64,000 bases of DNA from Polynucleobacter sp. VK25 (GTDB taxonomy: Bacteria; Pseudomonadota; Gammaproteobacteria; Burkholderiales; Burkholderiaceae): the NCBI RefSeq assembly GCF_018687355.1, contig NZ_CP061288.1, positions 186,001 to 250,000 on the forward strand, read 5' to 3'. The notes beneath the pieces are model-generated. The model made no database searches. It worked only from the letters and a program-made list of their open reading frames with translations, and was not told the origin of the DNA. Of this stretch, positions 10,533 to 13,903 are shown piece after piece; the first letter of the stretch is position 1; each line of letters opens with the position of its first letter. A program made the translations under genes and the position numbers.

Positions 10533-10863
10533 TAAGCAGTAAGTAAGCGCATAGCCGGCTAAATTGGAGATTAGACGGTTGGATAGTTTAAGAAGTCAGC
10601 AAAAACAGACTCAAATCCGAAAACCCTTGCTCAAGGGTGCCTGGGCTATTCTCTCCATTTTTTCCAGCACATTTAAGAAGCCGTTGTCCTTTGGGACCAC
10701 GGCTTTTTTTCCAGGATTCATTAGCGTGCAGCGCCTAGCATCAAGCCGCGCGCCGATGAATGGCTCGCTCGTCAGCTCCAAAAGGTTGCAAAACCAGGCG
10801 GAATTAGATGGTCGGGTCTTCTTAATGTAGTTTGTACTAATCCTCACGTGAAGGAGTATTAAT
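10533..10863 (+). other. 331-bp non-coding gap between nrdB and the H1-like gene
   Basis: This stretch holds a small perfect inverted repeat (ACCCTTG at 10623-10629, CAAGGGT at 10632-10638), the strong terminator listed separately at 10678-10710, and the leader of the H1-like gene with AAGGAG about 8 bases before its ATG. An open frame of 88 codons crosses the terminator and has no recognisable motif, so I treat it as chance. No convincing promoter hexamer pair or RNA gene was found. Confidence 0.6.
10678..10710 (+). terminator. Intrinsic terminator after nrdAB
   Basis: AAGCCGTTGTCC (10678-10689) pairs with GGACCACGGCTT (10694-10705 region) with one mismatch, around a TTTG loop, and is followed by a run of seven T residues. 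This is a strong rho-independent terminator for the nrdAB transcript. It separates nrdAB from the histone-like gene, which must have its own promoter downstream. Confidence 0.9.
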
Positions 10864-11127
10864 ATGGCAATCGCCAAGAAAAAACCTGCTGCAAAGAAAC
10901 CAGCTGCTAAGAAAAAAGTAGCCGCTAAGAAGCCTGCTGCTAAAAAAGTAGCTAAGAAGCGTCCTGCTGCTAAAAAAGCTGCTGCTAAGAAGCCTGCTGC
11001 TAAAAAAGTAGCTAAGAAGCGTCCTGCTGCTAAAAAAGCTGCTGCTAAGAAGCCTGCTGCTAAAAAAGTAGCTAAGAAGCGTCCTGCTGCTAAAAAAGCT
11101 GCTCGTAAAGTAGCAAAAAAAAAGTAA
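10864..11127 (+). CDS. Histone H1-like Lys/Ala/Pro-rich DNA-binding protein (frame breaks at A9)
   Basis: A strong AAGGAG site precedes the ATG. The 87-residue zero-frame product is almost only Lys, Ala, Pro, Val and Arg, built from AAKKPAAKKVAKKRPAAKKA repeats, like the eukaryotic H1 C-terminal tail and the H1-like/AlgP proteins of Burkholderiales. Such proteins bind DNA through charge and are thought to help compact the nucleoid. The frame ends at TAA 11125 right after nine A residues. Beyond it, the -1 frame continues the same Lys/Ala/Pro composition to 11252 and ends in NPAAAWPFPTGTRP, which I recall as the typical C-terminus of this family. The full protein would be about 129 residues. 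Either the gene carries a one-base indel (or sequence error), or it uses -1 frameshifting. Confidence 0.85.
   Translation: MAIAKKKPAAKKPAAKKKVAAKKPAAKKVAKKRPAAKKAAAKKPAAKKVAKKRPAAKKAAAKKPAAKKVAKKRPAAKKAARKVAKKK
10921..11103 (+). repeat. Three tandem 60-bp repeats inside the H1-like gene
   Basis: Bases 10921-10980, 10981-11040 and 11041-11100 are the same 60-bp unit. Copies 2 and 3 are identical and copy 1 differs only at its third base (C for T). Each unit encodes 20 residues, itself two related halves (AAKKPAAKKV and AKKRPAAKKA). Near-identity at silent positions points to recent duplication, so copy number is likely to vary between strains. Confidence 0.95.
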
Positions 11128-11252
11128 GTAAGCCTGCTGCGAAGAAAGCGGGCTCTGCTGTAAAAAAGCCCGCGGCTAAGAAAGCTGCACCAGCGACTAG
11201 TGCGTTGAATCCTGCCGCTGCTTGGCCCTTCCCAACTGGCACACGTCCTTAA
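11115..11252 (+). other. Possible -1 frameshift site and in-phase C-terminal extension of the H1-like protein
   Basis: A9 at 11115-11123 followed by G gives the heptamer A AAA AAG (11118-11124) in the correct zero-frame phase, with the TAA stop as the next codon. This is the same slippery sequence as E. coli dnaX. After a -1 slip, 42 further codons (11124-11249) run to TAA at 11250-11252 and encode a Lys/Ala/Pro tail ending WPFPTGTRP. GCGGGCT (11148-11154) and AGCCCGC (11167-11173) could form a 7-bp stem, but it lies 23 nt after the heptamer, farther than usual for a stimulator. Confidence 0.6.
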
Positions 11253-11272: not shown

Positions 11273-11298
11273 GGGGTCTCTCACGAGACCCCTTTTTT
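11273..11298 (+). terminator. Intrinsic terminator after the H1-like gene
   Basis: GGGGTCTC (11273-11280), loop TCAC, GAGACCCC (11285-11292), then six T residues: a perfect 8-bp GC-rich stem with a T-tract. It lies 20 bp after the -1-frame stop at 11252, but about 145 bp after the zero-frame stop, which fits the longer reading frame being the ancestral gene end. Confidence 0.93.
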
Positions 11299-11360
11299 AT
11301 TGCCTAAAATTACCTAAAGTTTGATTGACTCAGATTTGAGTCGAGGTGCACATAAAGTGC

Positions 11361-12373: not shown

Positions 12374-13903
12374 TTAGGGGTAAAGCACTCTTACGCGATA
12401 GCCTGCGGCATTCAGTGGCAGGGCAATAGGAAGATCAAGCTGCAGCATTTCGCCAGAAGCGATTCCTTTTTTTAAAAAATCAGGATGAGCCTCTTGCCAA
12501 TTTTTGGGTAACCACTCCTGTGGACTGAATTGCAGTGATTTGATTTCAGATTCCTCTGCATCAGTCAAAGAAATTTCTAAATTTGGTGGCAAAACTGCAA
12601 TAGCTAGACGATTTTGTATCTCAACTTGCAATACAGATTGATTTGCAGCGTTTTTAAGCCCCTCTCGCGCGTTTTCTGTCGATAGTGCGGCTGAAGTTAT
12701 TTTCCAAGCAGCAAAATCGCTTACAGCGCGATCTAGACATCCTAGTGCACGACAAAGTTTTGCATCAATGCGTTGTAAAACATGAAATGCATTCACCGAA
12801 ATTGCATTGGATGTTCCATCAACACGCGGCGCTAATGTGGGAAGTAATGAATTCCTCGAAAGATGCTCACCAAAAACAAGTAAGAGCAACATTAAGACTG
12901 CGTATAGAGCTAACTTAAGACTTTTTTTTTGAGCAGGTGCAGCAAAAGTGTTGTCAGTGCCACTTTGATTGCTCTTATTTAGGGTGCCGTGTAGGCAAAC
13001 CCAACCTTCACTCTCTTGCCAAACAGAAAGCTTTAGCCATTGGCTATAAGTCTCCATCACCTCTTCTGCTTGGCGGGCAAGTACACCGGACAACACAATG
13101 CGTCCGCCTACTTTCATCTTATTGACCAACGCAGGAGCGAGAACTTGGAGCGGATTAGCCAGGATATTGGCCATCACGATGTCATATTTAGTTTCTGCTG
13201 CAAGCTCTGCAGCGCCCTCATTCGGAAGAACAAAGCGAATGGTGGTGTTGTTGATTTCTGCATTACTGCGCGCCGCAACCATGGCTTGCGGGTCAATATC
13301 AGTGCCGATTACTGGATTGCAGCCCAGTTTTGCTGCGGCGATTGCCAAAATTCCTGATCCGCAACCGTAATCGAGCAGACTTTGATTCTGTAAATGATTT
13401 TGTTGTTCAAGCCAAAGCAGGCATAAATGCGTGGTGGGGTGACTTCCAGTCCCAAATGCTAGGCCAGGATCAACGGCAAGACAAATTGCATTTGGATCAC
13501 TCGGTGCATCGTGCCAAGAAGGAACGACCCAAATACGCTCACCAATCTGAATGGGCGCAAATTGACTTTGGGTTAAACGAACCCAATCTTGCTCTTCAAC
13601 GGTTTTTTCTTGAGGTGGACTTAGATGAAAGCCTGCCTCTTTGAGGGATGCCAGCAGTTCTGGAATAAATGTTGCGCTACCAGATGCATCAATTCCAGGA
13701 TTAAAGAGCGCAGTTACTGCTGATCGGTCCCATGCTTGTACTTCTGGGTGAAGCCCAGGCTCGCCATAGAGTGGGTTTTCATCGTAGCCGCCTGCAGCGT
13801 CATCTTCAACAGTGACGGATAAGGCGCCTAACTCCAAAAGCGCATCACCTAAAGGCTCAGCAGTTTCGGCGGCTACCGTGAATATCAGTTCACGATAAGA
13901 CAT
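12374..13903 (-). CDS. prmA: Ribosomal protein L11 methyltransferase PrmA fused to a DUF3426-like membrane domain
   Basis: Residues 1 to about 305 are PrmA, which trimethylates ribosomal protein L11. Motifs are MSYRELIFTVAAETAEPLGD at the start, LAFGTGSHPTT at about 148-158, the SAM-binding LLDYGCGSGILAIAAAKLG at about 176-194, and MANILANPLQVLAP near 247. From about 330 a transmembrane helix (LKLALYAVLMLLLLVFG) begins a second domain of about 180 residues resembling DUF3426 proteins. DUF3426 is usually encoded by a separate gene just after prmA, with an N-terminal zinc ribbon. Here that ribbon is absent and the frames are joined. The junction lies next to an A9 run (minus strand, 12930-12922). 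The gene starts 16 bp after accC. Confidence 0.88.
   Translation of the reverse strand: MSYRELIFTVAAETAEPLGDALLELGALSVTVEDDAAGGYDENPLYGEPGLHPEVQAWDRSAVTALFNPGIDASGSATFIPELLASLKEAGFHLSPPQEKTVEEQDWVRLTQSQFAPIQIGERIWVVPSWHDAPSDPNAICLAVDPGLAFGTGSHPTTHLCLLWLEQQNHLQNQSLLDYGCGSGILAIAAAKLGCNPVIGTDIDPQAMVAARSNAEINNTTIRFVLPNEGAAELAAETKYDIVMANILANPLQVLAPALVNKMKVGGRIVLSGVLARQAEEVMETYSQWLKLSVWQESEGWVCLHGTLNKSNQSGTDNTFAAPAQKKSLKLALYAVLMLLLLVFGEHLSRNSLLPTLAPRVDGTSNAISVNAFHVLQRIDAKLCRALGCLDRAVSDFAAWKITSAALSTENAREGLKNAANQSVLQVEIQNRLAIAVLPPNLEISLTDAEESEIKSLQFSPQEWLPKNWQEAHPDFLKKGIASGEMLQLDLPIALPLNAAGYRVRVLYP

Follow-up and report, generated by a model that had tools for sequence, protein, structure and literature searches.

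How does an H1-like gene whose reading frame stops directly behind nine A's reach the C-terminus of its own family, which lies beyond that stop in the -1 frame? The question is raised by the stretch of 64,000 nucleotides from Polynucleobacter sp. VK25 (assembly GCF_018687355.1, contig NZ_CP061288.1) that is called the window here and that covers bases 186001-250000 of a 2.0-Mb single-contig genome. A preliminary description of the window had read the end of the gene as GCA AAA AAA AAG TAA, with A AAA AAG in zero-frame phase, and had suggested an 87- and a 129-residue protein from one gene, with a dnaX-type ribosomal mechanism implied; a phase-variable run and an A lost in sequencing were given as alternatives. 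We propose that the gene carries a conserved recoding site yielding both proteins, most likely by RNA polymerase slippage on the A run (probability about 0.64, from comparison of sequences). Runs are written A9, A10 and so on after their length; G and L numbers are our own handles; papers are cited by PMC number.

Results

The site in the window and in the genus

All coordinates of the preliminary description proved exact to the base. The zero frame of the open reading frame (ORF) 10864-11127 reads GCA AAA AAA AAG TAA at 11113-11127, with the heptamer in phase at 11118-11124; its product is a low-complexity repeat. Reading of both frames confirmed the 42 further codons of the -1 frame (11124 to 11249), which end NPAAAWPFPTGTRP and are closed by TAA at 11250-11252. 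The features are collected in Table 1; hairpin A, the TAA that closes the third frame, the second A9 run and the genus-wide conservation described below are additions to the preliminary description.

Table 1 Features of the two A9 genes in the window; positions are those of the window, with the support for each feature.
Feature	Position	Strand	Support
Shine-Dalgarno-like AAGGAG of the H1-like gene	10851..10856	+	Read directly in the sequence
H1-like gene, zero frame; short product, Lys/Ala/Pro repeat protein of 87 residues	10864..11127	+	ORF and profile matches
Nine-A run, proposed slippage site	11115..11123	+	A9 in 118, A8 after T in 7 and A10 in 1 of 126 complete -1-phase genes
A_AAA_AAG heptamer in zero-frame phase; site of the rival ribosomal shift	11118..11124	+	Phase computed from the ORF start at 10864
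Zero-frame stop TAA, predicted end of the product of unslipped A9 mRNA	11125..11127	+	126/126, partly through row selection
TAA closing the third frame (A8 or A11 mRNA)	11129..11131	+	Stop at that place in 126/126
-1-frame extension, 42 codons and stop; family C-terminus of the proposed 129-residue product	11124..11252	+	Open in 126/126 relatives
WPFPTGTRP motif, family-conserved	11223..11249	+	DNA pattern in 170/186 genus genomes; longer version in 270/299 of the family sample
Possible hairpin A, 6 nucleotides after the heptamer	11131-11138 / 11147-11154	+	Weak: fully paired in 8/38 gap-free rows, no covariation
Possible hairpin B, sharing an arm with A	11148-11153 / 11168-11173	+	Fully paired in 34/38 gap-free rows; pairing and covariation no better than shuffles
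Terminator-like GC-rich inverted repeat and T run, 3' of the gene	~11273..11299	+	Read directly; absent from the list of a simple inverted-repeat scan
PrmA-DUF3426 fusion ORF, 509 residues	12374..13903	-	PrmA residues 3-307, DUF3426 residues 335-506
Second A9 run, proposed second slippage site, CAA AAA AAA AGT in the fusion linker	12922..12930	-	A9 in 55/61 fused, non-duplicate loci

The sample comprised 186 Polynucleobacter genomes, 178 of which were matched by the protein search and 170 by the WPFPTG DNA pattern. The locus was taken from 168 of them, 169 loci in all since G180 contributed two; the remaining 18 genomes had no match or no listed coordinates. The C-terminus lay in the -1 frame in 128 loci, in an open frame in 24 and in the +1 frame in 2; 13 loci were without a start under the start rule and 2 without the exact motif. 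AAA AAA AAG TAA ends 126 of the 128 complete genes with a -1-frame C-terminus. These 126 are the rows kept for AAA AAA AAG before TAA, a filter that dropped G054, where the zero frame stops elsewhere, and G057, with A10 and a separate AAA-AAG-TAG. The alignment across related genomes that the preliminary description had proposed as a check thus has A AAA AAG plus stop conserved in 126 complete genes, and this conservation lends strong support to its suggestion that one gene yields H1-like proteins of 87 and 129 residues.

The same kind of site is found in 10 of the 13 start-less loci, A10 in 2 and no run in 1. In G125 the site is present and the motif reads WPFPTV; in G033 the H1 run is broken to A6, the in-phase A_AAA_AAG is kept, and the -1 extension carries WPSPTG. 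The exact context GTNGCA9GTAAGNAAGCC occurs in 80/186 genus genomes. A slightly looser pattern found 76 stretches in the named genome collection, overlapping the 80-genome set: 55 labelled Polynucleobacter, 20 uncultured beta proteobacterium, Betaproteobacteria or Burkholderiaceae, and 1 a Saprospiraceae metagenome-assembled genome (L347), in which contamination or chance is possible.

Selection on the A run

AAA AAA AAG precedes the stop in 126/126 genes (the row criterion), as against 0/402 of the other Lys-Lys-Lys stretches of the same genes; elsewhere in them Lys is AAG in 2137/4463 codons. The codon before the Lys codons ends in A in 119/126 genes at the site and in 283/1985 cases before Lys-Lys elsewhere in the same genes. 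This wobble A lies outside A_AAA_AAG and stretches the run from 8 to 9; the codon is GCA in 102 genes, GTA in 16, GAA in 1 and GCT in 7, and since GTA is the usual Val codon too, GCA is the informative part of the count. At third positions the median difference between these species is 0.38 in the two flanking genes (maximum 0.63), so silent changes have had time to arise. The species are not independent, and all run counts are given without a p-value. Taken together, the counts indicate that the H1 A run is under selection. Programmed transcriptional slippage calls for a homopolymer of about 8-9 or more A or T at the frame junction; here A9, T+A8 and A10 stand there in 118, 7 and 1 genes. The 2.0-Mb genome has only 8 A9 runs on both strands: that of the H1-like gene, that of prmA (below) and six more, of which three lie in further ORFs and three outside any long ORF.

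The -1 extension as a protein end

The extension is open in 126/126 genes, with 98 distinct DNA sequences encoding 63 distinct peptides. Its ratio of nonsynonymous to synonymous differences (pN/pS) is 0.30 overall and 0.34 without the six WPFPTG columns, whose invariance is built in, the rows having been found by that pattern. With the motif columns excluded, pN/pS falls to 0.06 over the 10 columns that are left of the last 16, and the stretch before them gives 0.45; the value for all of the last 16 columns, 0.04, is biased by the choice of rows and is replaced by 0.06. These ratios show purifying selection on the extension, and a shifted-frame coding sequence under purifying selection is what programmed transcriptional slippage also calls for. 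Re-initiation was rejected as a way into the extension: a conserved start codon was sought there and not found, 25/126 extensions having no ATG, GTG or TTG at all, so a frame change is the route that we propose.

Profile matches place the family's C-terminus in the extension. The best NCBIfam match of the short form is NF038053 (hist_H1_lk_Burk), at 31.6 bits; the read-through form scores 70.9 bits, its alignment reaching the last position of the profile, 195 of 195. Neither form attains the cut-off of 80 bits, and among six open relatives only L008 does (80.3); Pfam HC2 matches the short form with 33.9 bits (cut-off 40). The C-terminus of NF038053, ..NPAAAWPFPTGxRP, is present in the -1 frame, and the 270 family-sample genomes matched by the longer motif pattern include all 40 of this genus in the sample. 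A protein database search gave 52 proteins, mostly of other Lys/Ala-rich families, which are not used as evidence.

In all 15 outgroup loci of other genera, which were chosen by the motif, the C-terminus lies in a single open frame; 9 have no run of at least 7 A in the gene, and 6 have in-frame runs of 7-9. Judging from these loci, it is most likely within Polynucleobacter that the split arrangement arose.

Species with another template frame

Twelve complete open genes hold the run in frame, 11 in one lineage (including G133, with A11) and one in G053. The context is GCA AAA AAA AAA GTA GTT AAR, with ATA for GTA in G133, and truncated copies in G144 and G180 hold the run in frame as well. These in-frame A10 and A11 genes have stops in both other frames: one A fewer leads to TAG, one A more to AGT AGT TAA. 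A third lineage, of 9 genomes, has no long run, and its frame is open wherever a start was found (none in G019). Among the A9 species the frame is open again in G034 (A7), in G182 (A9 and an extra base before it), and in G031 and G119 (run gone). Wherever the site was lost or brought in frame (the 9-genome lineage, G031, G034, G119 and G182), the long frame is thus open. The preliminary description had counted against recoding any relatives in which the frame is unbroken and the slippery site missing; such relatives exist (the 9-genome lineage, G031 and G119), but because their long frame is open they do not refute recoding elsewhere.

G031 (L091) has lost the slippage site, and its repeats continue directly into the C-terminus, leaving 169 residues open; this looks like recombination between repeats.

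On the tree of the neighbouring nrdB and kinase genes the open or short state changes at least 8 times (7 without G054). A grouping of all -1 genomes against 22 chosen open genomes was rejected (approximately unbiased test, p-AU 0.00113); this comparison replaces a first one-clade test (p-AU 1.3e-08), which was confounded by nested losses. By our reading of the tree most of the changes would be losses of the run, a run of at least 9 being kept in the A10 lineage, G053 and G182. Clade I has a support of only 37 and in one rooting includes G053, G119 and the outgroup, so no direction of change is claimed. The repeated changes of state imply that the run can persist while the default product of the template changes.

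A second A9 gene: PrmA-DUF3426

The fusion gene of Table 1 lies 1.8 kb from the H1-like gene. The prmA sample held 76 loci with both halves, after removal of one exact duplicate; species may overlap in it, and 13 partial loci were left uncounted. The halves are fused in 61/76 loci, with A9 in 55, A10 in G121 and no long run in five (G117, G126, G001, G055 and G057). The 55/61 come from a search of the linker over its full length; a narrower, alignment-based count gives A9 in 47/55 named loci. By our measure 15 loci are unfused: L279 and L296, which have A9 (apparently a misplaced start and a contig end); G033, with A8; nine with neither fusion nor long run; and G023, G111 and G030, in which, with A9, PrmA ends at 304 and the -1 frame runs open through the A's into DUF3426. 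In G121, which is related to these three with their short default, the run is A10 and the frame continuous.

The A9 stands in three codon phases, in 50, 4 and 1 of the 55 fused loci. CAA AAA AAA is followed, in the 50 rows of phase 1, by AGT (33), ACT (5), ACA (4), AGC (3), AGA (3) or ACG (2); the first A of this codon is kept though the residue changes, and A_AAA_AAA does not need that A. By eye the linker is otherwise highly variable (53 rows, one genome twice). Upstream in the fusion ORFs Gln is CAA in 626/760 and Lys AAA in 309/448 codons; to judge by these counts CAA AAA AAA alone would not be rare, and it is its constancy that matters. Off-frame stops lie within 16 codons of the run in both other frames in 51/53 rows. 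Behind the run the fusion protein of the window and of many relatives has a hydrophobic stretch, and slipping would free PrmA from a partner that is likely membrane-bound.

Two side observations concern both genes. In G001, G055 and G126 (L028, L007, L009; L368-L370), which belong to the lineage that has no H1 run, the prmA-linker run is absent too and the fusion is kept; slippage could have lost its use there. In the 1.55-Mb genome G033 (L184, L381) both runs are altered, the prmA run being A8 with PrmA stopping at 333; this looks like a reduced or decaying genome.

Other features of the H1-like locus

The terminator that the preliminary description placed after the gene is visible as an inverted repeat with T's, although the simple scan did not give it; the stem that it noted at 11148-11173 is present too, listed by the inverted-repeat scan on the minus strand. 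The flanking genes, which from their sequences we take to be nrdB (upstream) and a convergent pfkB-type kinase (on the other side), are kept near the H1-like gene in 149/170 and 167/170 loci, respectively, one locus being an outgroup. GCG, CCC and GTG make up 26%, 27% and 17% of the Ala, Pro and Val codons of the extensions, as against 0.5%, 0 and 0 in the repeat parts; many of these codons sit in arms of possible hairpins.

Discussion

How the two proteins would be made

On the nine A's RNA polymerase would sometimes add one A or drop two, giving a mixed pool of mRNAs. Unslipped A9 mRNA would meet TAA right after the run and give the 87-residue DNA-binding repeat protein; A10 or A7 mRNA would be read through V-S-K-P... 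to the family C-terminus, giving a protein of about 129 residues; A8 or A11 mRNA would halt at the next TAA, without whose T the third frame would extend for 5-19 codons (125 of the 126 genes shown). The cell would thereby keep tailless and WPFPTGTRP-tailed H1-like protein at a set ratio. The repeat part may bind DNA like other bacterial H1-like proteins, while the tail may dock the protein to a partner. In the PrmA-DUF3426 gene the same device would have the long form as its default. The site and its conservation, the selection on extension and run, and the difference in default frame between species are shown by the sequences; from them we infer that both H1-like proteins are made, that RNA polymerase rather than the ribosome slips, and that the tail is a docking element.

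RNA polymerase is most likely the slipping machine, given that the run length is common to two genes and several codon phases, that A10 or A11 is kept in the open lineage, and that stops end the other frames. A wider proposal, for which we see about even odds, is that Polynucleobacter uses A9 slippage as a standing device for two proteins per gene in at least two unrelated genes, H1-like (tail on or off) and PrmA-DUF3426 (free methyltransferase, or one joined to DUF3426 via a hydrophobic segment), with selection holding the run and the nearby off-frame stops while the template default drifts between species.

Several observations weigh against polymerase slippage. In G018 and G051 the run is A8 and the extension lies in the +1 frame. 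The proposed device is dispensable, because the 9-genome H1 lineage and five fused prmA loci do without the run; such runs can also arise without the split arrangement, because the outgroup G251, a small genome, has an in-frame A9 elsewhere in the gene. The T+A8 variants (8 genomes) and G033 (A6) keep the in-phase A_AAA_AAG, and G033 keeps the -1 extension. Nor does the wobble A exclude the ribosome, because the first heptamer, A_AAA_AAA, exists only with that A. The sole tRNA-Lys among the 37 tRNAs of the genome has the anticodon UUU, and a single tRNA-Lys(UUU) is the condition that makes A_AAA_AAG highly shift-prone in Escherichia coli. Finally, E. coli RNA polymerase prefers poly(T), slipping on at least 7 T and needing even more A; more than 7 A's is the stated need of the bacterial enzyme (PMC6260861).

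Alternative explanations

The strongest alternative, which we consider possible and clearly the less probable, is a dnaX-type programmed -1 ribosomal frameshift on A_AAA_AAG, with both ribosomal sites occupied by tRNA-Lys(UUU) and with possible help from the adjoining stop and a hairpin 6 nucleotides downstream; the same two proteins would result. The heptamer stands in zero-frame phase in the window and in 126/126 genes, tRNA-Lys(UUU) has no competing CUU tRNA, and in E. coli few -1 motifs work as efficiently as A_AAA_AAG when stimulators are present (PMC4066793). In several relatives, as in the window, hairpin A begins 6 nucleotides behind the heptamer; against shuffles of synonymous codons the local structure has a slightly greater stability (mean z of two groups, -1.1 to -1.75); and G033 has lost the run yet keeps the heptamer. 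Hairpin A, however, is fully paired in only 8/38 rows and shows no covariation, and AGGA, GGAG, GAGG or longer is found within 25 nucleotides upstream in 0/126 genes, which bears out the preliminary description in seeing no Shine-Dalgarno-like stimulator. A_AAA_AAG can do without the wobble A that lengthens the run, and A_AAA_AAA without the ninth A of the prmA run; a ribosomal shift gives the third-frame stop no role, and it would have to go in the +1 direction in G018 and G051, with their A8. The mechanism that the preliminary description implied is thus still a candidate, but not the favoured one, the conserved feature being the length of an A run in various codon phases and in two genes, and not just the heptamer. 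Changes in hairpin B that look compensatory (G098, G040 and G025) were set aside: 693/1000 shuffles of the 38 gap-free rows reach the number of double changes, G040 and G025 falling outside this test through insertions or deletions.

Phase variation, in which replication slippage would switch the C-terminus on and off, is very improbable. A9 is a possible replication slip site and A7, A8, A9 and A10 alleles all occur across species, but a mixture with many ON alleles is predicted, whereas 126 of the 130 complete genes with the standard run and stop are in the -1 phase (2 in frame, 2 in +1) in this comparison between species. Just as improbable is a decaying gene whose short protein alone functions, with the extension as a relic. 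By ordinary decoding the extension is unreachable in the -1-phase species, and the short forms of the 126 genes span 49 to 122 residues; purifying selection contradicts decay, however, the extension being open throughout with the low pN/pS given above, most of all near its end, and run-less genomes as well as the motif-chosen outgroup loci keep the C-terminus in one open frame. An A missing from a single 129-codon frame by sequencing error, homopolymers being error-prone on some platforms, has next to no probability, since the loss would have to recur in more than 100 genomes: the exact A9 context is repeated in 80/186 genomes of the genus, the looser pattern in the 76 overlapping stretches, and the frame break in 126 complete genes.

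Significance and comparison with known systems

Recoding that is deeply conserved throughout a genus is, in our judgement, uncommon for an ordinary cellular gene. Automatic annotation is likely to call the 87-residue protein and to overlook its conserved tail. With runs from A7 to A11, three codon phases, a long or short default and lost sites, the two sites offer natural variants for the rules that tell polymerase from ribosome slippage, and the PrmA case suggests how a fused gene, by slipping, can still supply the separate product where a second gene would otherwise be needed. We know of no gene for an H1-like nucleoid protein that uses recoding. The open-access papers searched (subscription papers lay outside the search) gave, among the matches listed, nothing on frameshifting or slippage in the Polynucleobacter H1-like gene or in prmA-DUF3426; one paper on frameshifting in Polynucleobacter concerns chlD (PMC9227772), and the main text of the GeneTack survey has no mention of histone or Polynucleobacter (PMC3711429).

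The read-through protein aligns to the end of the NF038053 profile but stays below its cut-off. Frameshifted poly(A) genes are known from Blochmannia, whose AT-rich endosymbiont genomes hold 114-153 coding polyA tracts of at least 9, as against the 8 A9 runs on both strands of 2.0 Mb here. E. coli dnaX has an upstream Shine-Dalgarno-like element and a stem, and its shift gives the shorter product. The H1-like gene shares with it the in-phase heptamer and the single tRNA-Lys (PMC5009743), but has no such upstream element and no well-conserved stem at 5-6 nucleotides, and its shift would give the longer product.

In Citrobacter rodentium tssM1 an A11 run gives about 20% +1 frameshifting, and both forms and their ratio are needed (PMC4256274). 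There, as proposed here, the default is short and a C-terminal domain is reached by adding A's; unlike tssM1, another gene with a run of 11 and its stop 28 nucleotides away, the H1-like gene has its stop adjoining the run and is conserved across a genus. In Thermus thermophilus dnaX slippage on A9 gives slipped and unslipped mRNAs for a short and a long protein; the avoidance of 9-A runs is described in the same paper (PMC1088944). Nine coding-strand A's and short and long products, here proposed, are common to both systems; they differ in the gene, in the frame of the template, which is long in Thermus and short in H1, and in tRNA-Lys, of which Thermus has two (PMC5009743) and the Polynucleobacter genome described here one.
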